From the IMG/VR virus record IMGVR_UViG_3300028384_001500, positions 62,001 through 126,000 of that record: a DNA stretch of 64,000 bases; one strand, given 5' to 3'. A program made the position numbers and the translations under genes. Below are positions 9,689 through 41,791 of this stretch, piece after piece (position 1 is the first letter of the stretch; the number at the start of each line of letters is the position of its first letter). This DNA is from a virus. The notes under the pieces are model-generated. The model did not search any database. It saw nothing but the letters and a program-made list of their open reading frames with translations, and was not told the origin of the DNA.

Positions 9689-10600
9689 CTAAATAATATG
9701 TCCTGAATTAATTTTAATTTCTATTTTGCAATAATCACCTTGACGGTCACATTTAAAATATCGAAAAACTTCTGCTGTAAGATGTTTAATAAAGTTAAGA
9801 TCATATGACAGTGTTTCTTTCACATTTGATGATCGTAAAAAGAACTTTGCGTCCATGTGGCCATCACGAACTAAAAAATGAGCAAGGCTAATACAAGAAT
9901 TATCAGTGTAAATATATCTTCTCGAGTCCAACCCTTCTGCTCTTTCGTACTCATTTTCACCTCGCATTTCTGCTTTAATTTTATTAAATACTGCATTTTC
10001 AATTTTTCGGTAGTATTCTTTTTCTTTGTGGTAGTTTAACATTGTTTTGTTGACGTCGGAAAAATCGCCTGTATCATAATGAACAAAATTAAGGCCTAGT
10101 ACTTCGTTGCCGCTTTTAAGGGCTGCCATTTGTGTTGCTGCGTTACTGAGGTTGGCCATAGAATCATTTTCCAGTTTATAATACTGGTTTACTAAGTCTT
10201 TGACTAACTGTTTATCCACAACCTTACCAATAACTGTCACATTAGGATAATTGCCAAATTCATCAGCAGCCTCTTGAAAAAGATCGTATATTTTTCTAAG
10301 ACTAGTGATGTTTTGAATTGGATCACCTCGTTTTTGAAAACGATCAACAATTACCTTCCATTCAGGCAAGCAGATAATTGTTTGGTTGTTTAAGTTGTGT
10401 AATTCTCGTTTTAATTGTTCAACGTGATTAAAAGTGTCGCGACCGTAATAACGAGCGTGAATAAGCATAGAAAGTGCAGATCGATCTTGAATATTCCACT
10501 TATATCCTGTTTCTTTATGAATCATTTCATAAAGAGTTGTTTTTCCACTACAATCAGGGCCTTCAATAAAAATATAATCAATTGGTGTGCTGTGTGACAT
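9689..10600 (-). CDS. Nucleotide kinase fused to thymidylate-synthase-like C-terminal half
   Basis: 303 residues. The N-terminal part has a P-loop GPDCSGKT (14-21) and the layout of thymidylate/deoxynucleotide kinases. From ~165 the sequence aligns without gaps to the core of ThyA-type synthases: Cys236 sits at the catalytic Cys, VRDGHMD and RSSNV follow (Arg256-Ser257), then SYDLNF, and the end GDYCKIEIKINSGHI mirrors the ThyA Gly-Asp-Phe...His-Leu-Tyr segment. Two changes stand out: the ThyA RSxD Asp is Asn259, and the Asn that selects dUMP (Asn177 in E. coli) is Asp267. Asp at that site is known in dCMP hydroxymethylase. The N-terminal third of a full synthase is missing, so activity is uncertain. 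Confidence 0.65.
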   Translation of the reverse strand: MSHSTPIDYIFIEGPDCSGKTTLYEMIHKETGYKWNIQDRSALSMLIHARYYGRDTFNHVEQLKRELHNLNNQTIICLPEWKVIVDRFQKRGDPIQNITSLRKIYDLFQEAADEFGNYPNVTVIGKVVDKQLVKDLVNQYYKLENDSMANLSNAATQMAALKSGNEVLGLNFVHYDTGDFSDVNKTMLNYHKEKEYYRKIENAVFNKIKAEMRGENEYERAEGLDSRRYIYTDNSCISLAHFLVRDGHMDAKFFLRSSNVKETLSYDLNFIKHLTAEVFRYFKCDRQGDYCKIEIKINSGHII

Positions 10601-10644
10601 TTATTACCTCATTTATATAGTATTATATTTTAAAGGCAATAAAT
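10599..10644 (-). promoter_or_regulatory. SD-occluding hairpin before the kinase/TS-like gene
   Basis: On the minus strand ATTTATTGCCT (10644-10634) can pair with AGGTAATAAAT (10609-10599), 11 pairs with one G-U. This buries the GAGG Shine-Dalgarno (10610-10607) and part of the ATG at 10600. The loop contains a TATAAT box. A transcript arriving from upstream would fold, while one started from the local promoter would lack the 5' arm. Confidence 0.5.
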
Positions 10645-10650
10645 TTACAT
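10622..10650 (-). promoter_or_regulatory. Candidate promoter, AAATGTAA box plus TATAAT
   Basis: Minus-strand ATGTAA (10650-10645, within TTAAATGTAAA) is separated by exactly 17 nt from TATAAT (10627-10622). It would start transcription a short distance upstream of the ATG at 10600. The upstream box is not a sigma-70 TTGACA; it recurs before several other genes here. Confidence 0.45.
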
Positions 10651-10654
10651 TTAA

Positions 10655-11590
10655 TTAAGCAGGAGGAGTACCTCTTAACCAGAAATATAGATCTTTTATA
10701 AAATCTTTAATGTTAGAACTTCCGCCCGGGCCTTTTTTAAGTACTTCTTTTTTAACGAGACGATAGCTACCGTCGCTTTTTTTAACAAGTTGTTCAATAG
10801 TATGCCTTGAACCGTCTTTTCTAATTACATACCTTATCGATCCTTTTCTACCTGCTACATCTTTTAATACATCCCATTCCATCACCGGATCTAAGCCGTC
10901 GTAAGTTAGATCAAATTTACTAGCTATGTCAGGGCTTAGATCAGCCAGATGATCATCAGCAACTCTTAAAAGTTCATCAACAGCTGATTCAGTAGGAGAG
11001 ATAAATGGGTCAAAGACACCTGCAGCTCCGGCAGCAGCAGTTCCGGCTAACATGTTCTTAAGAAGGTCGCGACGGCTTAAATTCATTGACAGATTGGTCA
11101 CGTCAATTGTATTTCCATCGTCTTCGTCAGGCGTCATTTCTATGCTAGGATAGTTGGTTGGTCCTGGCAAAGCATGCATATTTTTTCCTTTACTCGGGCT
11201 TTGAGATTTAGATGAAGCTGGTACTATTTCTTTTTTTGCTGTGGGCTGAAACTGATCTTCCCAGGATCTTTTTTTGTTTGGATCTGCAGATGCGTATTCA
11301 GAACTTCTTCTGTTTATCTTGACCTTTAGCGGTTCGATTGGAGGTACAGACATACCGGCTTCCTTTGCAGCAATTCTTTTTTGTGTTTCTTCTTTGACTT
11401 GCTGAAGGAATATTTGATACATTCTATCGTAATCGTCTAGATCTTTTGCTTGTGCTGCTAACAGTTCAAACTCTTCACCTAGCTCTAACTCTACTTGCAT
11501 TCTAATTAACTCTTTTTCTGATTTGGATAAGCGGGCTTCGTTCAGTATGTTTTTGATTATTTTTTTTAATTTATGCTTCGTTAGTTTCAT
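10655..11590 (-). CDS. Leader-bearing protein with internal Tat-like motif
   Basis: 311 residues. The leader MKLTKHKLKKIIKNILNEA has L-N-E at 16-18 followed by Ala19. Residues 20-75 are a charged helix; 76-165 are low-complexity Ser/Pro/Lys, probably disordered. At 172-178 the sequence reads SRRDLLK, followed by NMLAGTAAAGAAG. This is a twin-arginine signal (S/T-R-R-x-x-L-K plus hydrophobic Ala/Gly stretch) placed in the middle of the protein. The C-terminal 110 residues are mixed alpha/beta with no family recognised. No Shine-Dalgarno precedes the internal Met169, so separate initiation there is unlikely. A processed form could expose the motif, but this is speculation. Confidence 0.6.
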   Translation of the reverse strand: MKLTKHKLKKIIKNILNEARLSKSEKELIRMQVELELGEEFELLAAQAKDLDDYDRMYQIFLQQVKEETQKRIAAKEAGMSVPPIEPLKVKINRRSSEYASADPNKKRSWEDQFQPTAKKEIVPASSKSQSPSKGKNMHALPGPTNYPSIEMTPDEDDGNTIDVTNLSMNLSRRDLLKNMLAGTAAAGAAGVFDPFISPTESAVDELLRVADDHLADLSPDIASKFDLTYDGLDPVMEWDVLKDVAGRKGSIRYVIRKDGSRHTIEQLVKKSDGSYRLVKKEVLKKGPGGSSNIKDFIKDLYFWLRGTPPA

Positions 11591-11625
11591 TTTTCTATAT
11601 TTTGTTTATTCTTTAATCTTAGCGA

Positions 11626-14073
11626 TCAAATAAGAAAGTCATTATAAGCTTCTGGCCATGGGACGTTGTTTGCTAGCGAATAGCTTTGCCATCTGAGCTT
11701 CCCGTCAATCACATACTTTACAATTTCATAAAGAGACAAGGCCCAACCGTATGTTTCAGGGTTATTCATTTCAGGTTGATCTTCATATTCTTGTAAGTAA
11801 GCAATTATTTCTGCCATATAGTCGTGAATATTATTAATTGTCCTATATCCTCTTTCGTATAATTTTACTATTTTTGCATGCTCTATTCCCATTTCAGATG
11901 CCGGCATCATAGCTTCCATCCATTGATCTTGAAAAATTTCTTGTAAATCAACGACACTATTTCGATCAACAAATATAGAGATATTTTCAGCTAGCCTTTT
12001 TGTCTTTCCTGCTTGGGCTTTATATGATTGAAAGTTTGGTCCTTTAATTAACGGATCTTCTCGCAACTTAAATATGACTGATGCAGCATTAACTCTAGGT
12101 GTTGTTCTAAAGTCTAGCATACCGTTTCTATAATTTTGTGGGTTTAATAAGATTTCTCTGTGTATTGCTCTTTCGTACACTTTGATTGGATAAATTGGAT
12201 CAAGATGTATTTTGCTGCCAAAATAATAAAACGAATTAAGTTCAGCAGCAGAATCAAGATATTTTAAAAATGTACTAGGTAATTTTTCTTCTATCATTGC
12301 AAACGTTTTGTTATCAGCATACGTCGCAAATGTACTTATTAGCTTATCATGTTTTCCTTGTATTTCGCCAAATTCGTTAGACACGACATTTCCTTGACCT
12401 GGTAGAGTACGCATTTGATAGTTAAAACTGCCGTGGAATTCTCTTAATTTTAAATCTTCAGGGCAATTTGGATGTGTTGTTAAGACAAGTGTATGCCGTC
12501 TAGCATTATCGGCGTCTCTTTGACTGTTAAAAAGTTCATATAACGCTGTTATATGTTCAGGTGTTAAGCCGGGGTGTCGAATAATTCTTGTAAAATAGTA
12601 GTCTCGAGGTGGATTAGGATCGTTCCATTCATTACCAGAAATTACGTTATTTGTGACAATATCTTCAACCATTTCATTGAATAGCTCAGGCGTAGGTTCT
12701 CGTTTATAAATTTGAATCCCATAGTACTGGTTCATATCCAAAGTGTTTGTTGTGTCAATAAAGTTATGTAATATTCCCGAAGGTATTTTTCCGCCATTTT
12801 TTGCCTTTTCTGATCTATACACTTTTGTCATAAAATCAGGAGGTAAAGGTAGAATTGACTTAATTAACGCGTCAAAAGGAACATGTTCTATTGCGACTGC
12901 TGCTACTTCTGGCCGTGCTGAATTTCTAAAACTTATCGGGTGTCTGTAAACTGCCCGCTCAGGATCTTTGACCATTTCAATAAAAATGTCAACGTTCGAA
13001 GAATATTGACATATACCTCTAACTTGCTCTGCAAATAAATTTAAATCTTCCGGAGAAGTAGCAGCTGCTCTTAAGTCTCTATATTGATCAAGCGTTAATG
13101 ACTTATAATAAGCAATTATATCTACTGTCTTTCTACTAGGTTTTTTAACATCAGCCTCAATCAAATCATAAAGTCTTTGTCCTATGTGTCTAATAATTGT
13201 TTCTTTTGATGCTGGTTTGTTGTCACCGTTAACTGTCGCATGCCCATCACTGCGCAATTCAACGTGATCACCCTGTTTGACAAAACTTAGACAAAATTTT
13301 CGCTCTGGAGCGCGTGGGTTATAGTCGCCAACACGAGTTAGATAATACATATGCAAGTTCATTTTTTTGTGATAGTTAAGGAACATATTTCCACTTCCAT
13401 CGACTGTTGTGCACCATGTCATATTACCTAGCTGTGCTTTATCAATAGGTGAGTTAGGGTTAAGATAATTATAGTTTGGCCCCATACGCCCTAATGATAT
13501 TGATCCTTTATAGGTTTTAGGATAAGCAACAAAGTAAGGATTAGAGCTAGATGGCATAGCAATAACTTCAAACTCTGATGTTTGACCATTAACACCGTCA
13601 GCGATTACTTGGTTAAGTACATCAGTTCTTTTACCTACTCCTGATCCACTTTCTATATATTCCATTGCTTCATTGTATGTTAAAGTTGTGTTGTCAGGTT
13701 GTACTACATCGATCTTTGGTAGAAGATCAATAAACTGATTTGCAGTCCCTCTAACAGGACGTGGCGGTAATTCACCTCGTCGAGCATTATTAATAATCTT
13801 ATTTAAGATATCTTTACCACCTTGGGCTATATCTCTAAGACTATGTCCTTGACCACCGTCATTAAGTGTATTGAAAAGTATTTTTGCCATGATCGGATCG
13901 TTAAACGGAGGTTTCCAGTCATTTCCAAAAACATACATTTTAAAGTCTTGATCACTAATAATTCCCCTTTGGATAAATTGATTAAATGACCTTTTCTTTA
14001 TTTCAGTAAGAAGACTAGCCTCTTTTAGATAATTTTCAATTATCAAAGACAGTTGTTTGCGTGTTACTTTCAC
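11626..14073 (-). CDS. Large leader-bearing protein with WCT motif
   Basis: 815 residues. The leader MKVTRKQLSLIIENYLKEA has L-K-E at 16-18 and Ala19, the same register as three other tagged proteins. Near residue 220 there is a distinctive GNMTWCTTVDGSGNMF with a following Tyr-His. This Trp-Cys-Thr...Asn-x-Phe signature occurs, as far as I recall, in uncharacterised proteins of large phages. The C-terminal two-thirds is helical with repeated proline-initiated segments (for example HPGLTPEHITALYELF and HPNCPEDLKLREF), suggesting helical repeats. No enzyme motif is certain. Size, leader and location favour an internal virion protein. Confidence 0.6.
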   Translation of the reverse strand: MKVTRKQLSLIIENYLKEASLLTEIKKRSFNQFIQRGIISDQDFKMYVFGNDWKPPFNDPIMAKILFNTLNDGGQGHSLRDIAQGGKDILNKIINNARRGELPPRPVRGTANQFIDLLPKIDVVQPDNTTLTYNEAMEYIESGSGVGKRTDVLNQVIADGVNGQTSEFEVIAMPSSSNPYFVAYPKTYKGSISLGRMGPNYNYLNPNSPIDKAQLGNMTWCTTVDGSGNMFLNYHKKMNLHMYYLTRVGDYNPRAPERKFCLSFVKQGDHVELRSDGHATVNGDNKPASKETIIRHIGQRLYDLIEADVKKPSRKTVDIIAYYKSLTLDQYRDLRAAATSPEDLNLFAEQVRGICQYSSNVDIFIEMVKDPERAVYRHPISFRNSARPEVAAVAIEHVPFDALIKSILPLPPDFMTKVYRSEKAKNGGKIPSGILHNFIDTTNTLDMNQYYGIQIYKREPTPELFNEMVEDIVTNNVISGNEWNDPNPPRDYYFTRIIRHPGLTPEHITALYELFNSQRDADNARRHTLVLTTHPNCPEDLKLREFHGSFNYQMRTLPGQGNVVSNEFGEIQGKHDKLISTFATYADNKTFAMIEEKLPSTFLKYLDSAAELNSFYYFGSKIHLDPIYPIKVYERAIHREILLNPQNYRNGMLDFRTTPRVNAASVIFKLREDPLIKGPNFQSYKAQAGKTKRLAENISIFVDRNSVVDLQEIFQDQWMEAMMPASEMGIEHAKIVKLYERGYRTINNIHDYMAEIIAYLQEYEDQPEMNNPETYGWALSLYEIVKYVIDGKLRWQSYSLANNVPWPEAYNDFLI

Positions 14074-14100
14074 TTACTTCTCCAAATATATTATATATAT

Positions 14101-17100
14101 TTAATCAGTTACTAAAGGTCTTACTTTTCTTGAACTAGTGCTAGCACCCCAATTAGGATCGTTAGATGCGTCAGTTAACCATATTGAATACGGCACCATT
14201 GTTTCAGGTTTCTCGCCCCACATTCTTAACCAGCCTGTGTTGTTTTCATAGTCTGTAATTTTAAGTCGATAAAAAGTCTTTTTATTCTTAGTTGTCTTTT
14301 TAATCATGTCAACAATACAACACCAAGCAATGCATTTTTCACCAGGTAACATTTTAAGAACTGACTTAACGCCTGCTGATTGTATTTTTTCCATCATATC
14401 ATCTGGGAAAGCAAGATCATCACGTGTTGCTGAACAAAGATCTTGATACATTGTTAACTTGTCAATTCTACCCCAGTCTTCAATGTCTTTTGTTTGATCA
14501 ATAAGAATAGGCAGGATAGGGTCAGCATCTTTTTTCTTTGCTTGCCGGAGTGTCATACCATACTTTGACTTTTTAAGTGTGTTATAATTTTCAATAATAA
14601 TTTCGTAAAGCTGTTTATGATTATTGATTGTTCCATCCCACATTTCTTGCAGGCCATTAAATGCCTCAACTTGACATAGAGATGCAAAACCGGTTTTGTT
14701 AAGTTTAGAGTGACGCCATTTACCTTCATCATTGAACAACATGTCAGCAACTGATTTATATGGCCTGTTTTGCATAATTTCAACAACTGCTGTTTTACCT
14801 ACACCTTTGATTGATGTTAAGGGTGGTATAAAGGCTTTTTTCTTATCAGACCATTGCCAATATGTACCTGATTCGTTAACATCTGGCAATTCAACACGGT
14901 AACCCATTTCTTTAATTTCAGCAATTGCCTTGGTTAATGCGTTAGGGTTATTGTTTTCTGACTCAAGAATAGTACCTAACCAGTCTGTTTCGTAGTAAGT
15001 ATGCAACCATGCTGCGTAATACGAACCGATTGCATATGCGACAGCATGCGACTTATTAAAACCATAAACTGAGAAGAATTCAATACGCTCCCATAGTTCT
15101 TGCGAGACATGCTCTGGCACACCATTAATTTCTTTCGCACCGGTTACAAACTTAATGCGTGCAGCTTCACGTTCATCACCTTTCTTACCCATTGTATCGA
15201 GAGATTTTTTAACCAAGGTTTTACGAAGTTTATCTGACTCAGCTGGTGTGAAACCGCCTAACTTTTGTGCAAGAAGCATAAACTGTTCTTGAAAGGTAAC
15301 ATGACCAAACGTCGGTCCAAGAATATCCTTAATGATAGGATGATCATAGTGGATTTCATCAGCACGCATTTTATCTTTTACATATTTCTTGTGCACGTTT
15401 GCTCGAAGTGGACCTGGTCGATAAATAGCTGTAAGTGCGGCTAATTCAATAATTGTTGTTGGTTTAGCATCTTCACAAAAGCGACGAGCACCTTCAGCAG
15501 TAAATTGAAAAACACCTACCTTGCGACGCTGATGGTATACATGTTTCCAAACCTCAGGATCGTCTTGTTCTACATAACGACAATTTAGATGCTTATCAAA
15601 CCAATCACGAATTTCTAGAAATGTAGGTTCTTTACCTGTTTCACGCGTCAAAATACGCTTAATGCAGTTTTCAACGTCTTTAAGTAGTGTTAAGCCAAGA
15701 AAGTCAAACTTAATAAACCCGTTATCTTCAAGATTACGAAAGTTCATACCTTCTGTCCACGGTGTTTGTAGTTCACCTCGCACACCAATAATAGGCATGC
15801 CGCGAGCTAAATCATCAGCTGGGCCAATAATAACACCACCTGCGTGTCGACCAATCGATCGATTTTGCATGAATAGTGCTTCGATATGATCCTTTACTTT
15901 TGGGTATTTTTCCATAAAAGAGCGGTAACCTTTTGAATATGTCATGCAGTCTTCGTGTTTAAGAACAAATACAGACTTTTCAGTATTTTCATCACGAGCT
16001 TGAGACATCACCTCATCTTGTAAAGGGCCGGTCATTTTATTTACTTCAGCAAAGTCGACACCGTAAAACTTAGCGATATCTTTAACAAGTGATTTAAGCT
16101 TAAGTGTGTTAAAGTTGGAGACAGGAATTACAGCTTCATCGCCATATAGTTCACGGGCAGCGTTAATTAGCGCATCACGATCACCAGCATCAGAGTCGAT
16201 ATCGGGCCACGAAGTACGATGTCGACCTAGAAAACGCTCCCATAGCAAATCATATTTAAGTGGATCAACTTGGGTAATCCCTAATAAGTAATTTACTAAT
16301 GAGCCTCCACCAGAGCCACGGGCTGCGCCAAATAGAGTATGATCTGCTGCCTTATGAAAGACTTCATTCATTACTAAGAAGTAGTTTTCGAATCCGAGGA
16401 ACTTGATGTCTTCGAGCTCGTGTTTTGCTCGTTCAACGTATTCAGTTTTTGTATGAAGGCCTTCTTTAACAAGTGCTTGTTTGACTTTTTGCGCCAGCTG
16501 TTGAAAAGCAGTTTGATTAGGGTTGTTGAAATCGGGAAGCTTAACAGAAGTATCAATCCAACAGTCTTCACACTTTTGCCATGCAATATCATGTGTAATT
16601 TCAATCGATCTTTTAATTGTTTCTTCATATCCTTCGTATGTTTCTTTATATTCGTCATAATGTCGTGTAAATTCATCCCACATCTGTGTTGCGTTCTTTG
16701 GATAAAGCTCACATTTTAGATCTTCAAACTCTGGTAACGGACTTGGGTCGTTACCCATCCACCCTAATTTTTTATAAAGTTCTCTTGCCTCCCATTTATC
16801 AGGTGAATAATAGTGTGAGTCTGGCGTGGATATCAGCTGTAAACCTGTTTGATCAGCATGCCGCAAGAGATGATGATTAACAAGGTGCTGCTGTTTAAGT
16901 CGATTAAATTGCAACTCTAAGTAGAAGTTATCTTCACCTACAGCGTCAACAAATCGCTCAGATAAGTATGACAGTTCTTGCTGAATTTGCTCGTCTGATA
17001 TTTTTAAAGCATTACCACGCATAATACGATTAGAATATATTCCACCTAGACAGGCTGTAGAAACATTGAGCCCTTTACCGTATTGTCTAAGCAGGTCAAA

Positions 17101-17619
17101 GTCAATACGAGGATATCTATAAAAGCCATCAGTATAAGCACGTTTAATTAGAGTAAATAAGTTACCTAAACCTTCACGGTTTTGCGCAGTAACTACCAGA
17201 TGATAACGTCGTTTCCATTCGTCTTTACCTAAATCAAAAGACTTAGTTTCTTCTTCGTTTTCAATGATATGACCACCTTCTTCCTCTTCTTTGATTGCCT
17301 TTTTCTTTGCAGCAGCTCGATCGATTTTAGCTTGTTCATAATCAGCTTTCCAGTCTTTAAGTGAAGGAACAAAATAAAACTCACAACCGTAAATCTGACG
17401 AAACTTACGACCAGACTTTTTAACTTTTTCAGCATGCTTATGAGCATGTGCCAATCCACTACCGTTTCCATGATCAGTTAATGCCCAAGCATCCATGCCG
17501 TTTTCTAGTACAAAGTCAATATGGTCAGAGGGGTACCCTAATCCATCAAAAACAGAAAAACCTGTGTGACCGTGAAAACCAACAAATCGATCGGGCGGGG
17601 TAAGTAATTTGATATCCAT
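14101..17619 (-). CDS. dnaE: Family C replicative DNA polymerase (Pol III alpha-like)
   Basis: 1172 residues, about the size of bacterial DnaE. PHP domain at the N-terminus (FHGHTGFSVFDG, ALTDHGNGSG). The polymerase palm shows ARGSGGGSLVNYLLG (~433), DPLKYDLLWERFL and the catalytic PDIDSD (~471), followed by RSIGRHAGGVII, GVFQFTAEGARRFC and YGFNKSHAVAYA. The second conserved segment is SDAGDRD instead of the usual IDF-x-x-x-R. This would be the main replicase, replacing the family B enzyme of T4-type phages. The start ATG at 17619 has AAGGAG at 17634-17629, inside a hairpin (separate entry). Confidence 0.93.
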   Translation of the reverse strand: MDIKLLTPPDRFVGFHGHTGFSVFDGLGYPSDHIDFVLENGMDAWALTDHGNGSGLAHAHKHAEKVKKSGRKFRQIYGCEFYFVPSLKDWKADYEQAKIDRAAAKKKAIKEEEEGGHIIENEEETKSFDLGKDEWKRRYHLVVTAQNREGLGNLFTLIKRAYTDGFYRYPRIDFDLLRQYGKGLNVSTACLGGIYSNRIMRGNALKISDEQIQQELSYLSERFVDAVGEDNFYLELQFNRLKQQHLVNHHLLRHADQTGLQLISTPDSHYYSPDKWEARELYKKLGWMGNDPSPLPEFEDLKCELYPKNATQMWDEFTRHYDEYKETYEGYEETIKRSIEITHDIAWQKCEDCWIDTSVKLPDFNNPNQTAFQQLAQKVKQALVKEGLHTKTEYVERAKHELEDIKFLGFENYFLVMNEVFHKAADHTLFGAARGSGGGSLVNYLLGITQVDPLKYDLLWERFLGRHRTSWPDIDSDAGDRDALINAARELYGDEAVIPVSNFNTLKLKSLVKDIAKFYGVDFAEVNKMTGPLQDEVMSQARDENTEKSVFVLKHEDCMTYSKGYRSFMEKYPKVKDHIEALFMQNRSIGRHAGGVIIGPADDLARGMPIIGVRGELQTPWTEGMNFRNLEDNGFIKFDFLGLTLLKDVENCIKRILTRETGKEPTFLEIRDWFDKHLNCRYVEQDDPEVWKHVYHQRRKVGVFQFTAEGARRFCEDAKPTTIIELAALTAIYRPGPLRANVHKKYVKDKMRADEIHYDHPIIKDILGPTFGHVTFQEQFMLLAQKLGGFTPAESDKLRKTLVKKSLDTMGKKGDEREAARIKFVTGAKEINGVPEHVSQELWERIEFFSVYGFNKSHAVAYAIGSYYAAWLHTYYETDWLGTILESENNNPNALTKAIAEIKEMGYRVELPDVNESGTYWQWSDKKKAFIPPLTSIKGVGKTAVVEIMQNRPYKSVADMLFNDEGKWRHSKLNKTGFASLCQVEAFNGLQEMWDGTINNHKQLYEIIIENYNTLKKSKYGMTLRQAKKKDADPILPILIDQTKDIEDWGRIDKLTMYQDLCSATRDDLAFPDDMMEKIQSAGVKSVLKMLPGEKCIAWCCIVDMIKKTTKNKKTFYRLKITDYENNTGWLRMWGEKPETMVPYSIWLTDASNDPNWGASTSSRKVRPLVTD

Positions 17620-17625
17620 ATAAGA

Positions 17626-17669
17626 AAACTCCTTGTAGTATTTTTGTTATAGTATACCACAAGGAGTTT
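17626..17669 (-). promoter_or_regulatory. SD-occluding hairpin before dnaE
   Basis: Minus-strand AAACTCCTTGT (17669-17659) pairs perfectly with ACAAGGAGTTT (17636-17626), 11 bp, extended by GTAT/ATAC after a mismatch. The second arm contains the AAGGAG Shine-Dalgarno, and its tail GTTTTCTT could also act as a terminator run. The loop carries the TATACT of the local promoter. It is either an attenuator or a translational switch. Confidence 0.6.
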
Positions 17670-17679
17670 AAGATTACAT
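17651..17679 (-). promoter_or_regulatory. Candidate dnaE promoter, AAATGTAA box plus TGGTATACT
   Basis: Minus-strand ATGTAA (17679-17674), 17 nt spacer, TATACT (17656-17651) preceded by TGG, an extended -10. The predicted start lies within the hairpin loop, so this transcript would not contain the hairpin's 5' arm. Confidence 0.5.
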
Positions 17680-17690
17680 TTTCACAAATA

Positions 17691-18098
17691 TTATTTATTT
17701 TCTTTGCAACTATCACACAAAGTATAAATCCAACCTCGATTACTATCTTGTTTTGCTGAAGGTTTGCTACATTCTGTGCAAATATGATATGACATAGCCT
17801 CAGCCATACTCACTAATCCATCGATGTAGTCATCACCACCGTATGTGTAGAAACAAAGTCCACCAAACTTTTCTTTAACTTGGACTGCTTCGCAAATAAG
17901 GTGTTCTTCTTCAGATTTGTTTCTGTTTACGTTTATGACCCTGTTTTGAATATTTTCACAAAGAGTATCTATTAGGTCATACCATCCATCGCCGCAAGAT
18001 ATCCCCCAGCACATTGCTGTCACTGTTTTGTCTAGATCTTTTTGGCGAAAAATGTTTGGATATTTTTCATAAAGTTGTTGTTGGAGTTCTGCTTTCAT
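17691..18098 (-). CDS. Zinc-ribbon-like hypothetical protein
   Basis: 135 residues. Landmarks: CGDGWYDLIDTLC near 35-47, KEKFGGLCFYTYGG near 86-99, and a C-terminal pair of Cys-x-x-Cys knuckles (CTECS and CDSCKEN) separated by a Trp-containing segment. The combination, including GWYDLI and KFGGL, is one I associate with uncharacterised phage and bacterial proteins. Zinc binding is inferred from the cysteines; the function is unknown. It follows the epimerase by 11 nt. Confidence 0.55.
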   Translation of the reverse strand: MKAELQQQLYEKYPNIFRQKDLDKTVTAMCWGISCGDGWYDLIDTLCENIQNRVINVNRNKSEEEHLICEAVQVKEKFGGLCFYTYGGDDYIDGLVSMAEAMSYHICTECSKPSAKQDSNRGWIYTLCDSCKENK

Positions 18099-18109
18099 GA
18101 TTTACCTCT

Positions 18110-19102
18110 TTAAAAGAATTCTGTCAAGTCAATGTTTTTTTCTTCTGCTTCTTCAAGAAAACGAAGCGGATTGTAACCTTCTGATTTTAATATGCTTTCA
18201 AACGACATTCGAATTCCTTCTTCTAGTGATATTCTAGGAGACCAGCCAGTATACTCTCTGACCTTTTTACCACTTAAGATATGATTTCCCATATACTCTG
18301 TCTGCGGGAGCCATTCAATTGTATCTGCAAAACTCTGGCCGCAAACACGATCCATAAGTGATACTATCTCACCGGTGACAAGCGGTGTTTCAGCAGCGAT
18401 ATTAAAGTCGTTATTCCAGCACTTTTCTTCTTTAATGCAAGAAAAGACACCGTCACAATAGTCATTGACATGTAGGTAGTCTTTGATTTTTGTTGGATCC
18501 AAAAACATTTGGACCTTTTTTACGCCGTTTAGCTTCGCGTAAATTGTTTTGGCAATGAGTGAATTCATATCACCGTCACCACCGTAAGCAAAGAGAGGTC
18601 GTACAATCATCCATTTATCACTATGTGACTTGACTACTTCTTCAGCTGCCAATTTTTGGCATCCATAAAATGTATGCGGGCCTCTATCTGAATTTTCTTT
18701 TATTTGGCTTTGCTGGTATTTTTCCGTTGCATAGATGACAGTTGTACCCATATAACAAACAGGAATACCACATTTCTTTGCCGCACGGCAGATGTTAAAT
18801 GTGCCTTGCACGTTTGTTAACGTCGACTCTTTTGAGTTAAGAGCAACAACATCAGTACCAACAACTGCTGCGTTGTGGATGACAACATCAATATCGTTAA
18901 CTTCAAAAAACTTTTGCCATGCTGTTTCGCTATTACGGTGAATACAAGGTTCACCTTTTTCTGTGGTATATTGTGACACATACGCTGCATCTTCATTTAA
19001 TTCATGTACACCTGATATAAATTGAAAACCGTGCATCTTTGCCCGTTTGGCAAGATTAGTGCCGATAAAGCCGCGTTCACCTGTTATAAAAACTTTTGAC
19101 AT
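18110..19102 (-). CDS. Extended SDR nucleotide-sugar epimerase/reductase
   Basis: 330 residues. NAD-binding GERGFIGTN at 8-16, a Thr-rich active-site strand (YMGTTVIYA), catalytic YGCQK, and a family-typical C-terminal region (KIKDYLHVNDYC, NIAAETPLV). It is distinct in sequence from the epimerase at 5242-6258, notably GTT instead of SSS at the active-site strand. The likely role is interconversion of an NDP-sugar for surface glycan change; the substrate is not defined. The Shine-Dalgarno GGAGG is 5 nt from the ATG and hidden in a hairpin. Confidence 0.8.
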   Translation of the reverse strand: MSKVFITGERGFIGTNLAKRAKMHGFQFISGVHELNEDAAYVSQYTTEKGEPCIHRNSETAWQKFFEVNDIDVVIHNAAVVGTDVVALNSKESTLTNVQGTFNICRAAKKCGIPVCYMGTTVIYATEKYQQSQIKENSDRGPHTFYGCQKLAAEEVVKSHSDKWMIVRPLFAYGGDGDMNSLIAKTIYAKLNGVKKVQMFLDPTKIKDYLHVNDYCDGVFSCIKEEKCWNNDFNIAAETPLVTGEIVSLMDRVCGQSFADTIEWLPQTEYMGNHILSGKKVREYTGWSPRISLEEGIRMSFESILKSEGYNPLRFLEEAEEKNIDLTEFF

Positions 19103-19105
19103 AAA

Positions 19106-19139
19106 AACCTCCGTAGTAAATATACTATACTAGGAGGTT
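19106..19139 (-). promoter_or_regulatory. SD-occluding hairpin before the epimerase gene
   Basis: Minus-strand AACCTCC-TAGTA (19139-19128) pairs with TACTA-g-GGAGGTT (19118-19106), 12 pairs with one bulged G. The perfect Shine-Dalgarno GGAGG (19112-19108) is wholly inside the stem, followed by TTTTT then ATG. The TATAGT of the local promoter lies at the loop. Confidence 0.6.
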
Positions 19140-19152
19140 ATAAATTTTTCAA
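19124..19152 (-). promoter_or_regulatory. Candidate sigma-70-like promoter TTGAAA-N17-TATAGT
   Basis: Minus-strand TTGAAA (19152-19147), 17 nt spacer, TATAGT (19129-19124). Good match to host housekeeping promoters. The predicted start is inside the hairpin loop, which would free the GGAGG for ribosomes. Confidence 0.5.
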
Positions 19153-19189: not shown

Positions 19190-19486
19190 TTATCTTTTTC
19201 TAGCAATGTCATACTGATGAATTATATAATCAGCTAAAGCGTCAATGCCATGCTTGTCATAAATTTTTATTAATTTATCGCTATTATCATACAATCTCAT
19301 CATAGTTTTATAAGGCATCGTATATTCTTTTGCAAGTTGAAAAATAAAACCGGTTATTCCATCCTTTTCGTAAGCTTGATCTAGATCTGATACCACATCA
19401 TTGGCAACTTCTGTAGGTGATGATGCTAATTTTTGACTCTCAGCAATAATTAATCTTCTTAATTGTCTTCGTGTAATTCTTTTCAT
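19190..19486 (-). CDS. Small leader-bearing helical protein
   Basis: 98 residues. The leader MKRITRRQLRRLIIAES has I-A-E at 14-16 followed by Ser. The remaining ~80 residues are predicted helical (VANDVVSDLDQAYEKDG, FIFQLAKEY, IHQYDIARKR). AAGGAAATAATA precedes the ATG, and an AAATGTAA box lies just upstream at 19508-19500. It would make a small internal protein comparable in size to T4 IPI or IPII. No known domain. Confidence 0.55.
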   Translation of the reverse strand: MKRITRRQLRRLIIAESQKLASSPTEVANDVVSDLDQAYEKDGITGFIFQLAKEYTMPYKTMMRLYDNSDKLIKIYDKHGIDALADYIIHQYDIARKR

Positions 19487-19559: not shown

Positions 19560-20642
19560 TTAAACACCAGTTACAACTTCTGTATAATCCATCAACTCAG
19601 CTGTATTGGGTATTAATTCAGACGGTTGTGTTGTTGGGTTTGCAGCTATTACTCTTAAATTCCAAAAAGATGATATCAAGCCTTGCCCTTTCCCAGCAAT
19701 ATAAGCAAGGTGTGTTGCAAACGTACCACAATTATATTCATCCATGACTGGAAGCAACGTATATAGGTGACATTTGTCTTTTATGCTTAATCCGTAATCA
19801 ATTGCCGACTGGACATAATTTACGTCTGGGCAAATGTAAAGTTCTCCTGCATGCAATGACCCTAATTTTTTCTTTGCTAGCTGTCCTAACCTTCTAGCCT
19901 CTTTTTGCGTCACAGTTATCATTCCTGTGCCTGTAAATTTTTTAAATGACTTAACGGGGTCAAACATTAGATCTGGGTCATAGTCAACAATGTTTGCCTT
20001 TCCTAACGATGCATACCTAACTTTTCCACCGGTTGCTAAAGATTTCTTAATAAGCTTAGGCGTGTATTTCCCTTGGAGGACGTATTTGTCAATAACTCCT
20101 CTTAGTTTATCTAGACTTGATTTAGAACATTGTCCGCTATATCTACCAAAGTCAAAATAGTGCGCACTACCATCACCTGCTATCAATATAATACCACCGT
20201 GGCCTTGAGGGAATAAATACTCTAAAGCTTGTTTTTCCATGCCTGTCAATCCTAGTGATTTAGATAAGGGTTTAGACCCAGTCCAGTGGCACATTATGAC
20301 ACATCCGTTTGCTGAGCTTGATCCAGTAGTTGATTTAGGCTTTGGTTTTTCGCTCTTTTTACTCTCTTCTTCGTCATCTCCAAAACTAGGTAAGTACTTT
20401 CCTAATCCAAAATATTCAGTATCAGCTTCGTATTCTTTTCCAAATTGTCTATATGCTTTTGCTACATAAGCGTTGTTTTTGGTTTTTTCGCTCGGCGGAT
20501 CTAATTCTAATCGATGTGCATCTTCTGGATATGTATCGTTCAACCACTGTCTAAACGCATCTGCTTCTTTTTTGTTTGTCGGCGCTGCTTCGTTTAGATA
20601 ATTTTCAATTATAATTTTTAAATCGCTTTTTTTAATTTTCAT
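19560..20642 (-). CDS. Leader-bearing permuted papain-fold (NlpC/YiiX-like) protein
   Basis: 360 residues. Three parts. (1) Leader MKIKKSDLKIIIENYLNEA, L-N-E at 16-18 then Ala19. (2) Residues 24-75: a small domain with DAFRQWLND and YRQFGKEYE that is also present in the protein at 22355-23500. (3) From ~110: GHGGIILIAGDG then YFDFGRYSG (His near 147), and much later YNCGTFATHLAY (Cys near 304). His first and Cys last is the order of circularly permuted papain-like enzymes. A Ser/Lys-rich linker separates domains 2 and 3. Amidase, peptidase or acyltransferase activity is possible. The same His...Cys layout is in 23512-24552. Confidence 0.6.
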   Translation of the reverse strand: MKIKKSDLKIIIENYLNEAAPTNKKEADAFRQWLNDTYPEDAHRLELDPPSEKTKNNAYVAKAYRQFGKEYEADTEYFGLGKYLPSFGDDEEESKKSEKPKPKSTTGSSSANGCVIMCHWTGSKPLSKSLGLTGMEKQALEYLFPQGHGGIILIAGDGSAHYFDFGRYSGQCSKSSLDKLRGVIDKYVLQGKYTPKLIKKSLATGGKVRYASLGKANIVDYDPDLMFDPVKSFKKFTGTGMITVTQKEARRLGQLAKKKLGSLHAGELYICPDVNYVQSAIDYGLSIKDKCHLYTLLPVMDEYNCGTFATHLAYIAGKGQGLISSFWNLRVIAANPTTQPSELIPNTAELMDYTEVVTGV

Positions 20643-25689: not shown

Positions 25690-26676
25690 TTATTGTCTCC
25701 CCATAAATTGATTATGTTCTTGTGTTAGTTCGTTAATTTCGCTTAAAGCATTTTCCCATAGCTTTGTAAATACTGTGTCGCCACCTGGGTTTTCTGTACC
25801 ATTAATGTCTTCCCGGCGTGATTGATATATACTGTCATTTGGGTGATAATCAAAGATATCATTCTTGGGTTCTGGCCAGTAAAGATTCGTACCTCTAGAT
25901 GTGTGACCACCTTTACCATCAGGTACTCGGAAAGTTTTAACGTAATGCATATCTGGTTTGCCGAAATTAATACGTGTACTTGCTTCAGGTAAAACTTTAA
26001 GTACTTCTCGTGCCATGTATGCAGCAAGCAGATTATCAGCTGCAGGTTGAATTTGCATATCTTGACGTTGAGCAATAAAACCTAACAGATCTTTTAAATT
26101 AAGACGCATTAGATAGAATGACGTCATTGCTTTTGGAAGTATCATTCGAGCGTCCATCATAGATACAGCTTTTGAGTCTGTCATATCTGCGTAGAGCTGT
26201 TTTGACTCACGTACGAGACGGCGCCACCTATCAGCAAACTCAGGACTATTTTGTACTGATTCAGGAATAACTGCATCGTCATGGCGCAAGTCGCGGTCAC
26301 CTGTACATTGTGCTGCAAAAGAACCAGCACGATGGCGAATAATATGAGTAACTTCTTGAAATGAAAGCCCTGACAATTTAAAGGTAAAACCTAGACATTC
26401 CATAGGGGTTGGTAATGCACGAAAATTAAGTACATCTTCAAGATTTTCTGACAACTCTTTTAAAGAAGCTGTTGCCGGGTTTGTGTCATCGTGATGATCA
26501 GCCCAAGTAGCTTTTACATATTGCCATGCAACATTAAGCGCTTGAGATCGAGTTGGTGCATCTACAAGTTCTACTTTAAGTGCTTTAAGGTTATTATGAA
26601 ATGTTGTTTTTGGTTCTTCACCAAACTTTAAATCCATTGGTAAAGTAATAGGAATTAAATTTAAGTTTTGAGGCAT
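25690..26676 (-). CDS. thyX: Flavin-dependent thymidylate synthase
   Basis: 328 residues, longer than the usual 220-250. The ThyX motif is RHRAGSFAAQC: RHR and the first Ser are kept, but the position usually Ser (RHR-x7-S) is Cys. The second half has LPKAMTSFYLMRLNLKDLLGF, FIAQRQDMQIQPA and a C-terminal extension of ~70 residues (YWPEPKNDIFDYHPND). It methylates dUMP using methylene-tetrahydrofolate and FAD. This is the phage's complete thymidylate synthase; the ThyA-like piece at 9689-10600 is partial. Confidence 0.93.
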   Translation of the reverse strand: MPQNLNLIPITLPMDLKFGEEPKTTFHNNLKALKVELVDAPTRSQALNVAWQYVKATWADHHDDTNPATASLKELSENLEDVLNFRALPTPMECLGFTFKLSGLSFQEVTHIIRHRAGSFAAQCTGDRDLRHDDAVIPESVQNSPEFADRWRRLVRESKQLYADMTDSKAVSMMDARMILPKAMTSFYLMRLNLKDLLGFIAQRQDMQIQPAADNLLAAYMAREVLKVLPEASTRINFGKPDMHYVKTFRVPDGKGGHTSRGTNLYWPEPKNDIFDYHPNDSIYQSRREDINGTENPGGDTVFTKLWENALSEINELTQEHNQFMGRQ

Positions 26677-32186: not shown

Positions 32187-32210
32187 GTTGCCTCCAAGAC
32201 TAATTATTAT

Positions 32211-32244
32211 AAAAAAAAAGAGAAGGCAGTAAATACCTTCTCTT
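32211..32244 (-). terminator. Intrinsic terminator after the fibre gene at 32270
   Basis: Minus-strand stem AAGAGAAGG/CCTTCTCTT (32244-32236 with 32226-32218), 9 bp, 9-nt loop, followed by TTTTTTT. It separates the fibre genes from 31845-32186. Confidence 0.85.
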
Positions 32245-32269
32245 AATTATTCATCAAAAATTAATTTGA

Positions 32270-35776: not shown

Positions 35777-38700
35777 TACGCAACGCTCCATCTGATGTCT
35801 ATTTGACTAACATATCCAGTCCAGTCTTCGCTAGCTGTAATTCTTACAACAATTGATTCTGCACCTGAGGTTTGACCATTTATGCTAAACGTTCCAAAGT
35901 TAACTTCGTTTGCAGCTCCTCCACTATCAATTGTCGCGTCTAGCGTTCCTGAAAGACAACCGTCGCCTTCTTGACCTGATACAGACCCTGCCCCTGAGGT
36001 GAATGCAACTGCTAAATCAACAAATTCGTTTTTGCCCGGGCATTTTAATTCAATTGTGCAATTTTTGTTTGCACCTTTTCCTGTTGATCGATCAACAATT
36101 GTTGCATCACCATAAATTGTTATACCAAAACGTGCCAAATCGTTATTAGAGCTATTTTCAAAATATCTAAAATACTCACGCGTTGATTCTGTTAGTGAGC
36201 TGTAATTAACATTATTATCAGGACCTTCAAAAACACCTCCATCAGTATGATTTCTAAAGTCACCAGAGTTACCACCTTTAAGCGGAGATATTAGAATTCC
36301 GTCATAAACCATTAAACCTTTGGCAAATCCTGCATAACTACCAGCGTCATTTATGGATATCTGAGAGTCCCATGCGTTTCCTGCCAATGTTATACTATTT
36401 TGTGTTGCAAAAGTTCCACTTTGAATTCGATATTGTTCACCATTAAAATATTCGTTGTCATGAGTAGAATTATCGCTAGCTGAATATACTAACAGATTTG
36501 TTGCAGTTTGTGTTGCAATTGTATGATTGTTTTTAAGTGGATGTTTAAACGTTAAAGCCCCACCACAATTTAGCAATGAAGTTCCTGTATCTGAAGTAAA
36601 TGCGCCTGATAGAGAAGTTGATTGACTAAATTGTATAGATGCAGTTATGTGCGTGACTTCGTTTTGAGCGTCAGCGTTTGTGTTTAAAGACTGTAAAGGA
36701 GCAGCACCATCATTTTCAGTCCTGTCAGCAGTTAAACCGTCCCCTCTCTGGACAATCGATACTGCATTTGCATTTGTAAGACTAGTCAATCTAATTGCAT
36801 CGCTATCGTTTGAGTATACATTTTTATAAATGTTACTTATTCGTGTTTCAATACTTCCTGTTGGGTTGACAAAGTATTTGACACCGCTCAAGTAAAATAC
36901 ATCATCATCACCAAATTGTGTTATTCCTGTTCCTGCATCTGTGATATTATTATTTTGACTTTCGCTGTCATTTACCCACTCAATATAGTTTGTGGTTCTA
37001 GTTCCCCAACTTCCTACATGTTTGACACGTGCATAATTCCATCCGTCTCTTTGATCATCAGTATGTACACGATATTTCCCTGTTCTTTGTATCTCTAAAT
37101 AATAAGGAACATCATTATCGTATTCAGCTGGTCTCCAAACACTTAAATCAAAAAACCCGCTACTACCTGTAAATGTTGTACCTGTTCCGCTTCCTGGTTC
37201 ACCAGCCCCAACATTGTTGTATGTTCCTGTTAAGTCAACTGTATGTAAGTCTGTTCCATTTACTTCTAGTACTAGTGAACCGCTATTGGCGTCTGAAAAA
37301 GAATTTGTAACATAATCTGGTAAAACTGCTGAGACATCTTCATTTAAGTCTCCCTCTATAGTAGTCGTCTTATCAAAAACAGCTGTTCTAATATTATTAC
37401 TTGACGTTAAAACCTGATATGTAGCATTTAGGCCTACTGAACTAAATCCTGCTGTTGTTCCTACATTTGTATAGCCTGTGATTGATTTTGTCGTACCAAA
37501 TGACAAAGCAGCCGTTACACCGGTATCGTTACAATCTATGTCGTCTAGGTCAGGTATTGCTGTGATTGTTCCTGTTCCTGCACCAAAAGTGACGTCAATT
37601 TGACTTATATAACCTGTCCAAGAAGTATCAGCCTCTATTCTTATTCCAATATACTCGTCATCAAGTATACCTACTGTGCCTAATGTAATGTAGTTAAGTG
37701 CATCTAAACTATTGTCAAAAGACAAGGATCCGTTTGCTGTGTGAGCTCCGTCATTATCATCATATGCGTCTAATACAAACTCTGTTGCTAAGTCCAACCA
37801 ACCGGTTTCTCTGGTTCCGTTATCTGGAAATTTAACAAATACTCTAATTCTTCCGGTGTTTAACGAGGTTGATGCTGGCACAATTGTTGTACCCGACCCT
37901 TGTATATTTAAGGTTAGATCATATTGAGTTGATCCTGTTTCATTTCTGAACCACCTATAAAACGTTCTTTGACCGGTTTCACCGCTATAATCCGGATTAC
38001 CAGATGGACCATTGCTAAAAGTACTAAAGTCACCGCTGTTTAATGTATTTAAAGGCGATTTAAGTCTTTGATTAAAAAACTGCAATCCGTTAGAATGACC
38101 ACCATTTGATGCCGTCATAAAGACTTCACTATCCCAAATATTACCGGCATCAACTAAAGAAGCTTGTGTATTATAAGATCCGGAAATTATTCTAAAATTT
38201 TCTCTTCTAAATGTTTCTCTTTGATTTGTCGAATTATTAGATCGATTATAAATTAGTATCCCTTCATCTGTTGCTTGCCCTGCATTAGAAAGATTAGATT
38301 TAAAAGGATGAGTAACATTTACACCAGCAGTGATTGACCCACTCAACATTTGTGTTGCAGTTATTGTAGAAGAACCTGTGATATGTAAATTTTTTGTATG
38401 ATCTTCACCTGCAATAGTATCAATTGTTGGCTTTGTTTGGCTGGATATAGAAAAAGAAACACCTGAGTTTAGAGAACCGGCATTAGAAGTTGTAAATGTT
38501 ATGTTGTTTGTGTCGTACACATTTCTATAAACATTATCTGCCCTTACACGATATTCTGCGCTTCCTCCAGTAAAATACTCTACACCTGACAAATGCACTG
38601 TTCCTGTGCCGGTAAATTCTAATTCATTACCAGAAGTTGACAACGCATCTGAATTTGTATCATTTAACCATTCTACATAGTTTGTTTCGATTGTTGTTGT

Positions 38701-41123: not shown

Positions 41124-41726
41124 CTATTCTAAATTAATTGTAACATCCAAGTCAACACTCATTTTAGGCACTCTTAAGTGATTTGCTAAATTATGCTTTT
41201 TAGCTTCAGTCGAATCTAAAAACCAATCAGCGTGCTTTTTCTTATCTACTAGCTTAAGAAAGTAGTCATCTGCCTTGCCGCAGTTTTGTGCCATCATTTT
41301 ATACACAATTTGATTAAGGCGATCTGACTCTTTTGCAGAAGCTTTTACTTCTTCTACTTTACCTAGTTGTCCTGAACTTACGTCGTGGATCATAAGTGTT
41401 GCGTTAGGATCCATGAATCTACGTCCTTCTTCTCCAAAAGAAAATAGTATAGCTCCACAACTCATTGCTTTTCCTTGCACGATTGTTGCAACAGGTAATT
41501 CTGCGTTTTTAATTGTAGAAATCATCGACATCAAAGAGTATACTTGGCCACCGTAACTATCAATAACAATTGGAATTACTTTTTGCCCTGTGTTGTGTGC
41601 CATTGCCATTTTTGTTGCAAACTCTTTTGCGCTTTCTTCATCAAACTTATTAACTCTAACAATTACAGGTTGTAAGTGTAATTCATATTCTTTAACAAGT
41701 GGCGATGTATTATATTTCCAAAGCAT
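41124..41726 (-). CDS. ClpP-like serine protease
   Basis: 200 residues. The catalytic triad of family S14 is in place: Ser89 in GKAMSCGAI, His114 in TLMIHDVSSG and Asp171 in DWFLDSTEA. VIDSYGG near 54-60 provides the oxyanion glycines. It has no N-terminal propeptide. Two roles are possible: a phage copy of the host ClpP altering proteolysis, or a head-maturation protease, as in some phages. A T4-type gp21 protease is not in this window. It begins a transcript after the NrdJ terminator. Confidence 0.82.
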   Translation of the reverse strand: MLWKYNTSPLVKEYELHLQPVIVRVNKFDEESAKEFATKMAMAHNTGQKVIPIVIDSYGGQVYSLMSMISTIKNAELPVATIVQGKAMSCGAILFSFGEEGRRFMDPNATLMIHDVSSGQLGKVEEVKASAKESDRLNQIVYKMMAQNCGKADDYFLKLVDKKKHADWFLDSTEAKKHNLANHLRVPKMSVDLDVTINLE

Positions 41727-41755: not shown

Positions 41756-41761
41756 ATTATA
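41756..41761 (-). promoter_or_regulatory. TATAAT box before the clpP-like gene
   Basis: Minus-strand TATAAT (41761-41756) lies 30 nt upstream of the ATG at 41726, just after the terminator. The terminator arm CTCCTCTTTTT can also pair, with a bulge, with the AAAAAGGAG Shine-Dalgarno, so terminator and ribosome site may compete. Confidence 0.35.
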
Positions 41762-41791
41762 ACAAAAAAGAGGAGTTATTACACTCCTCTT
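41762..41791 (-). terminator. Intrinsic terminator after nrdJ
   Basis: Minus-strand stem AAGAGGAGT/ACTCCTCTT (41791-41783 with 41776-41768), 9 bp, 6-nt loop, then TTTTTTGTT. It marks the end of the uvsX-exonuclease-helicase-nrdJ operon. Confidence 0.85.

Follow-up and report, generated by a model that had tools for sequence, protein, structure and literature searches.

We analysed a 64,000-nucleotide stretch of DNA (the window, positions 62,001 to 126,000 of the 236,652-base IMG/VR virus record IMGVR_UViG_3300028384_001500, genome G000), in which the main genes all lie on the minus strand. Three of these genes, encoding a dnaE-like DNA polymerase III alpha subunit, a nucleotide-sugar epimerase-like protein and a nucleotide-kinase-like protein, are each preceded by a hairpin that pairs the Shine-Dalgarno (SD) sequence and carries the -10 box of a promoter in its 5′ arm or loop region. 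These hairpins are likely to be compact promoter-plus-ribosome-site modules, through which each gene would rely on its own promoter and ignore transcription arriving from upstream. Polymerase entering from the co-oriented upstream gene would copy both arms and the RNA would fold, locking the SD in the 3′ arm so that there would be no or hardly any translation. Polymerase starting at the embedded promoter, which has the spacing of a sigma-70 promoter (TGTAA or TGAAA, 17 nt, TATAAT-like), would start past the 5′ arm and give a short leader of about 15-28 nt with a free SD. At dnaE and the epimerase, where a T-run follows the SD, the same hairpin may also terminate the incoming polymerase, while the kinase hairpin would act by masking only. 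The elements are as follows:

14101-17619, minus strand: dnaE-like DNA polymerase III alpha gene, 1172 aa (Pfam PF07733, PF17657, PF02811)
17651-17678, minus strand: dnaE promoter TGTAA-N17-TATACT, with the -35-like TGTAA at 17678-17674 and the -10 box TATACT at 17656-17651 (class found genome-wide with a fixed 17-nt spacer; TGTAATCTTA block conserved in six genomes)
17654-17669, minus strand: 5′ arm (anti-SD) of the dnaE hairpin, AAACTCCTTGTGGTAT (fold; pairing conserved in relatives)
17626-17641, minus strand: 3′ arm of the dnaE hairpin, ATACTACAAGGAGTTT, with SD AAGGAG and the T-rich run TTTTCTT after the SD (fold, SD-opening cost, T count)
18110-19102, minus strand: nucleotide-sugar epimerase-like gene, 330 aa (Pfam PF01370; the L111 homologue matches PHROG 540)
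19124-19151, minus strand: epimerase promoter TGAAA-N17-TATAGT, with TGAAA at 19151-19147 and the -10 box at 19129-19124 (TGAAA-N17 also at the epimerase in L111, L108 and L107)
19106-19139, minus strand: epimerase hairpin, AACCTCCTAGTA (19139-19128) and TACTACGGAGGTT (19118-19106), with SD GGAGG in the 3′ arm followed by a T-tract (fold)
9689-10600, minus strand: nucleotide-kinase-like gene, 303 aa (PHROG 761, Pfam AAA_28)
10622-10649, minus strand: kinase promoter TGTAA-N17-TATAAT, with the -10 box at 10627-10622 (promoter-class motif search)
10599-10644, minus strand: kinase hairpin, ATTTATTGCCTT (10644-10633) and GAGGTAATAAAT (10610-10599), pairing SD GAGG and the AU of the start codon, with no T-tract (fold)

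A reading made earlier from the sequence alone had located these three hairpins, with the SD covered by the stem and a -10 box in or beside each loop, and our folds on the minus strand agree. Its stem length of 11-12 bp fits the epimerase and the kinase (12 bp each) and understates dnaE, where AAACTCCTTGTGGTAT and ATACTACAAGGAGTTT form 16 bp with one G-U pair around a 12-nt loop, TATACT beginning in the last bases of the 5′ arm and running into the loop. The epimerase stem of AACCTCCTAGTA and TACTACGGAGGTT has a 1-nt bulge, the C before GGAGG, and TATAGT spans arm and loop. Two of the 12 kinase pairs are G-U and TATAAT lies between the arms.

To compare read-through with locally started RNA we calculated the SD-opening cost, the free energy needed to open the SD, and for a chance test we shuffled the 17-nt promoter spacer 3000 times. 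The cost for read-through against local RNA was 15.2 against 1.5 kcal/mol at dnaE (p = 0.0003, 0 of 3000 shuffles reaching the observed value), 11.7 against 0.3 kcal/mol at the epimerase (p = 0.0013) and 10.4 against 0.0 kcal/mol at the kinase (p = 0.0007); set against about 20 promoters in the genome, the epimerase and kinase p values are significant and not overwhelming after correction. The opening gain of read-through over local RNA was 15.0 (dnaE), 11.4 (epimerase) and 11.3 (kinase) kcal/mol, and among 55 promoter-gene pairs from the window's genome and its relatives it exceeded 7 kcal/mol only at alleles of these three genes. The same calculation gave 14.7 kcal/mol for read-through RNA of the T4 gene e leader.

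The best conserved of the three hairpins is that of dnaE. An annotated phage collection held no near relative by megablast and only distant DnaE protein matches, but IMG/VR yielded six genomes, including the window's, with dnaE proteins 91-94 % identical as well as remoter relatives down to 41 %; kinase and epimerase loci of relatives were collected from IMG/VR as well (sequences compared are given by L numbers). All six close genomes carry the dnaE hairpin, with an opening gain of 8.8-15.0 kcal/mol and the TGTAATCTTA block at its upstream edge, and searching viral contigs with a DNA pattern of this leader brought up no further alleles. The genes upstream of dnaE in the six genomes are of at least five different kinds, all co-oriented across gaps of about 60-135 nt, a related upstream gene being seemingly common to the window and L035 only. 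The hairpin stays constant behind these different neighbours, which indicates that it is conserved together with its promoter and gene as one unit. In the alignment of the six alleles 92.7 % of cells are paired; sliding the 3′ partners lowers this to 42-55 %. At two pairs both sides are altered (G-U/G-C/U-A at one, G-C/U-A at the other) and at three more one side, giving G-U or U-G. Where L007 and L025 differ in the 5′ arm (A to G, C to T) G-U pairs are retained, which fits an RNA structure and not a DNA palindrome.

The epimerase hairpin is rebuilt with other arm sequences in L006 and L111 (15.7 kcal/mol, p = 0.0003 each). In L111, whose epimerase protein is 69 % identical, the stem reaches 17 bp with TATAAT near its apex. 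The kinase hairpin is likewise rebuilt in L006 (p = 0.002) and L038 has a short stem, TATTACC/GGTAATA, that uses bases directly after the -10 box; evidence from compensating changes is weak for this hairpin. The kinase gene had been described as a kinase/thymidylate synthase fusion. The protein can be supported as P-loop nucleotide-kinase-like only (PHROG 761 thymidylate kinase, Pfam AAA_28), without any detected thymidylate-synthase domain, and a thymidylate-synthase-like gene lies separately at 25690-26676.

Promoters of this kind were searched for without regard to hairpins. The motif TGTAA-N17-TATAMT has 18 gene-strand and 4 other-strand matches genome-wide compared with 1 and 4 for the reversed control, and the spacer is nearly always exactly 17 nt. 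It stands before tRNA genes, the tmRNA gene, a head-protease-like gene and protein genes with short leaders. The dnaE and kinase promoters fit the class and the epimerase has a TGAAA variant, its TTGAAA-N17-TATAGT being near-consensus for sigma-70. Sigma-70 promoters have this spacing, so starts are expected about 7 nt past the -10 box, at about 17644 (dnaE), 19117 (epimerase) and 10615 (kinase) on the minus strand, in each case beyond the 5′ arm.

We also surveyed 586 gene starts from the window, about 65 kb more of its genome and related contigs (the rest of the window's genome entered motif searches only). A gain of at least 9 kcal/mol was found at 12 starts, where 0.4 were expected from shuffles; eight of the 12 are dnaE or epimerase orthologues and thus not independent. 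Of the AT-rich strong cases 13/16 have a -10 hexamer in the appropriate upstream zone, compared with 68/321 weak ones. The strong cases also include homing-endonuclease-like genes in L043 (window's genome, just downstream of the tmRNA) and L018, weaker ones occurring in L033, and two genes of unknown function in L010 and L112.

The sequence-only reading had further suggested that the three hairpins reflect a general device, and here it overstated its case. The other TGTAA-class promoters of the window's genome show no SD pairing above shuffles. When promoter halves were swapped between genes the mean SD pairing was 0.38 ± 0.03, nearly equal to the 0.41 observed, so that half swaps gave no genome-wide excess of SD pairing in the class. 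The device is thus real at a few genes, and the class as a whole does not share it. Its proposed mechanism, a hidden SD in read-through RNA and local RNA that would lack the 5′ arm, is supported by sequence and comparison and appears largely right.

Several observations weigh against the modules as we propose them. Only a few dnaE alleles, all close relatives, could be compared, and they beat shuffle control (a) only moderately (16/500 by score, 69/500 by pairs altered on both sides), as would be expected when six sequences are so similar. The remoter relatives L012, L023 and L027 have the dnaE promoter without an SD hairpin. The epimerase hairpin is absent in L107, L109, L112 and L113 and that of L108 is not significant (p = 0.27), while the kinase hairpin is absent in L036, L040 and L041; both elements are therefore dispensable in these relatives. 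In L040 and L041, on the other hand, no promoter of the TGTAA class is seen at the kinase either, and this joint absence speaks for the modules. The transcription starts, moreover, are predicted from the -10 box only, and the local leaders of the epimerase and kinase would be just about 15 nt long.

A feature that the sequence-only reading had missed is that most strong SD hairpins have the shape of terminators. A T-tract (at least four T in the six bases after the SD) follows 13 of 17 strong hairpins, or 7 of 11 with dnaE excluded, compared with 7 % of other genes and 14 % of chance hairpins of equal strength, so that many of them also look like intrinsic terminators. The form is full at the epimerase, partial at dnaE (12-nt loop, interrupted T-run) and absent at the kinase. 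The upstream genes of the three sites are co-oriented across short gaps, and a simple terminator scan of the gene strand found none between these genes and the three hairpins. The terminator shape suggests that shielding a gene from upstream transcription may be a role of the hairpins no less than timing. One may go further and see in them a three-in-one element, an intrinsic terminator with a sigma-70-type phage promoter in its loop and the SD of the next gene in its 3′ arm, a proposal that we put forward tentatively and with less than even confidence. Incoming polymerase would be terminated, any RNA that escaped would be untranslatable and RNA started in the loop would alone be productive; the element would have been rebuilt with unrelated arms at dnaE, the sugar epimerase, homing endonucleases and other genes.

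A timing switch of the T4 gene e type is possible but somewhat doubtful. It shares the masking mechanism with the module explanation and adds a claim on purpose: the embedded promoters would fire at another time than those upstream and the hairpin would delay protein synthesis. The anatomy is indeed that of T4 e and I-TevI, where translation is delayed until late transcription (PMC3014915, PMC2988022). The embedded promoter class however also stands before tRNAs, the tmRNA and the head-protease-like gene, its members are sigma-70-spaced, and the T4-type late box TATAAATA has no match in gene-strand gaps.

It is unlikely that the hairpins are mainly terminators of upstream units, with tight packing placing the promoter in the loop and the SD in the 3′ arm and masking arising as a by-product. 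Such an origin would account for the T-tract after most strong SD hairpins and for the dnaE leader of L010, where a stem of about 11-12 bp has TATAAT as its entire loop and runs into TTTCTTTTTT, the SD standing apart further downstream; there the same logic as in the SD-hiding hairpins appears to be carried by termination alone. It would also accommodate three other promoters of the class, in which a terminator overlaps the -35 element and spacer, and the endonuclease-like gene of the window's genome, which follows closely on the tmRNA and carries such a hairpin with TTTTTT. The kinase hairpins of the window and L006 nevertheless have no T-tract, other bases break up the T-run at dnaE (TTTTCTT, TTTACTT), where the loop, at 12-13 nt, is also long by the standard of terminators, and the SD is inside the stem in nearly all cases, though L010 shows that it can be outside.

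Chance, in which AT-rich promoters and GGAG-type SDs often pair somewhat and the best cases were picked, is a very improbable source of the whole set: mean SD pairing is no higher than after promoter-half swaps and most promoters show nothing, but the strong tail lies far above shuffles (12 against 0.4 at ≥ 9 kcal/mol) and the dnaE hairpin is conserved in six genomes. The kinase hairpin alone could possibly be due to chance. Least probable of all are DNA operators for a dimeric regulator, since the three repeats, although they overlap the -10 region as operators might, have only the SD complement in common, always stand in register with the SD and diverge in their arms among relatives while pairing is kept, partly by G-U pairs that break DNA symmetry.

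Promoters that overlap the terminator of the preceding gene were observed at 41756-41791 and 32190-32245 of the window and in L045, L035 (3858-3882) and L007 (1701-1724), with the -35 element in the terminator loop or 3′ arm and the T-tract in the spacer. The first of these belongs to the head-protease-like gene (41124-41726), which we considered as a fourth case for its CTCC before TATAAT and set aside (opening gain 4.7 kcal/mol, p = 0.25):

41756-41791, minus strand: head-protease-like promoter TGTAATAACTCCTCTTTTTTGTTATAAT, set aside, its CTCC being the 3′ arm of the upstream terminator AAGAGGAGT-GTAATA-ACTCCTCTT-TTTT

Other features of these genomes touch on the same genes and promoters. 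L043 (15911-17040, about 35911-37040 of the window's genome, minus strand) contains a phage tmRNA gene with the tag ANNNAHFESVALAA, followed within about 55 nt by the homing-endonuclease-like gene, whose SD hairpin also resembles the terminator of the tmRNA (GAGGACTTTTTT, with TTTTTT present). The dnaE match extends over about 4.8-5.0 kb in the distant relatives L018, L019, L030 and L033 compared with 3.5 kb elsewhere, which suggests inserts of about 1.3-1.5 kb; endonuclease-like genes are found at the long loci of L018 and L033. In L042 (1558-2204, window's genome, minus strand) a TGTAA-class promoter and a tRNA-Met gene flank a group I intron match (Rfam RF00028, 1705-1906), which possibly points to a split tRNA. 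Downstream of the TGTAA-class promoter at genome positions 235573-235600 (minus strand), L046 has a strongly folding leader of about 190 nt, a possible structured RNA with no Rfam match. An Rfam search of the window gave no match above the gathering threshold, and hence none for the three hairpins. An N-terminal motif of the type MK(I/L/V)TRxQLRxxIxxxLxEA recurs in many proteins that are otherwise unrelated and has the appearance of a shared tag for targeting or packaging; the capsid-targeting sequence of T4 may be compared. Genes for such proteins are:

10655-11590, 11626-14073, 19190-19486 and 19560-20642 of the window: proteins with the motif
L010 (3595), L112 (4066) and L046 (1686-2243): further proteins with the motif

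Masking of the SD by a hairpin is well documented at T4 gene e (PMC3014915), which bears out the likeness drawn in the sequence-only reading, as does the opening cost computed for the e leader. There the SD lies in a stem whose 5′ arm is present only on RNA started upstream, with promoters embedded in the 5′ strand (PMC3014915), an arrangement predicted here as well. Gene e differs in being a lysis gene with late promoters (TATAAATA), whereas here the promoters are the sigma-70-spaced TGTAA/TGAAA-N17-TATAAT, a replication gene is among those served and the stems often end in a T-tract. In I-TevI, I-TevII, I-TevIII and segB of T4 and mobE of Aeh1 a hairpin covers the ribosome-binding site, and the position of a middle or late promoter keeps local RNA from folding it (PMC2988022). 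Endonuclease-like genes of this phage group (L043, L018, L033) carry like hairpins, although conservation is strongest at a gene of the phage itself, that for its DNA polymerase, and not at a mobile endonuclease. Sequestration of the ribosome-binding site is also listed for the T4 soc, 49, 25, 26 and 39 leaders in the reviews PMC2988022 and PMC3014915, a likeness that follows the reviews' description and not sequence. In the T4 denV leader (NC_000866, L118, upstream of record position 65355) we observed a 10-bp stem over the SD, TCTCCTGTAG / CTACAGGAGA, with a possible sigma-70-type -10 box in the loop, of which the portions of the T4 literature searched make no mention.

Intrinsic terminators share the stem and T-tract with the hairpins of dnaE (in part), the epimerase and others but differ from them in that here the SD is in the 3′ arm and a promoter in the loop, the dnaE loop is long and the kinase has no T-tract. 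In the fold-back that protects the transposase of IS10 and IS50 from external promoters, read-through RNA hides the ribosome-binding site and RNA from the transposase's own promoter does not, although this serves the ends of mobile elements and not phage core genes. The hairpins described here would work like the T4 gene e and I-TevI devices without their late promoter and are best classed as a variant of these. New, as far as the literature searched shows, are its conserved presence at the gene of a replicative polymerase and the way in which its form overlaps with that of terminators. If the modules act as proposed, this logic can do without late promoters and extends beyond lysis genes and mobile genes: an uncultured lineage of jumbo phages has retained it for its replicative DNA polymerase, where the promoter is sigma-70-spaced and the neighbouring genes change. 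Should the hairpins also terminate, a single hairpin of about 45 bases would combine terminator, promoter and translational lock in a compact insulator, letting a gene keep its own control after recombination behind new neighbours.

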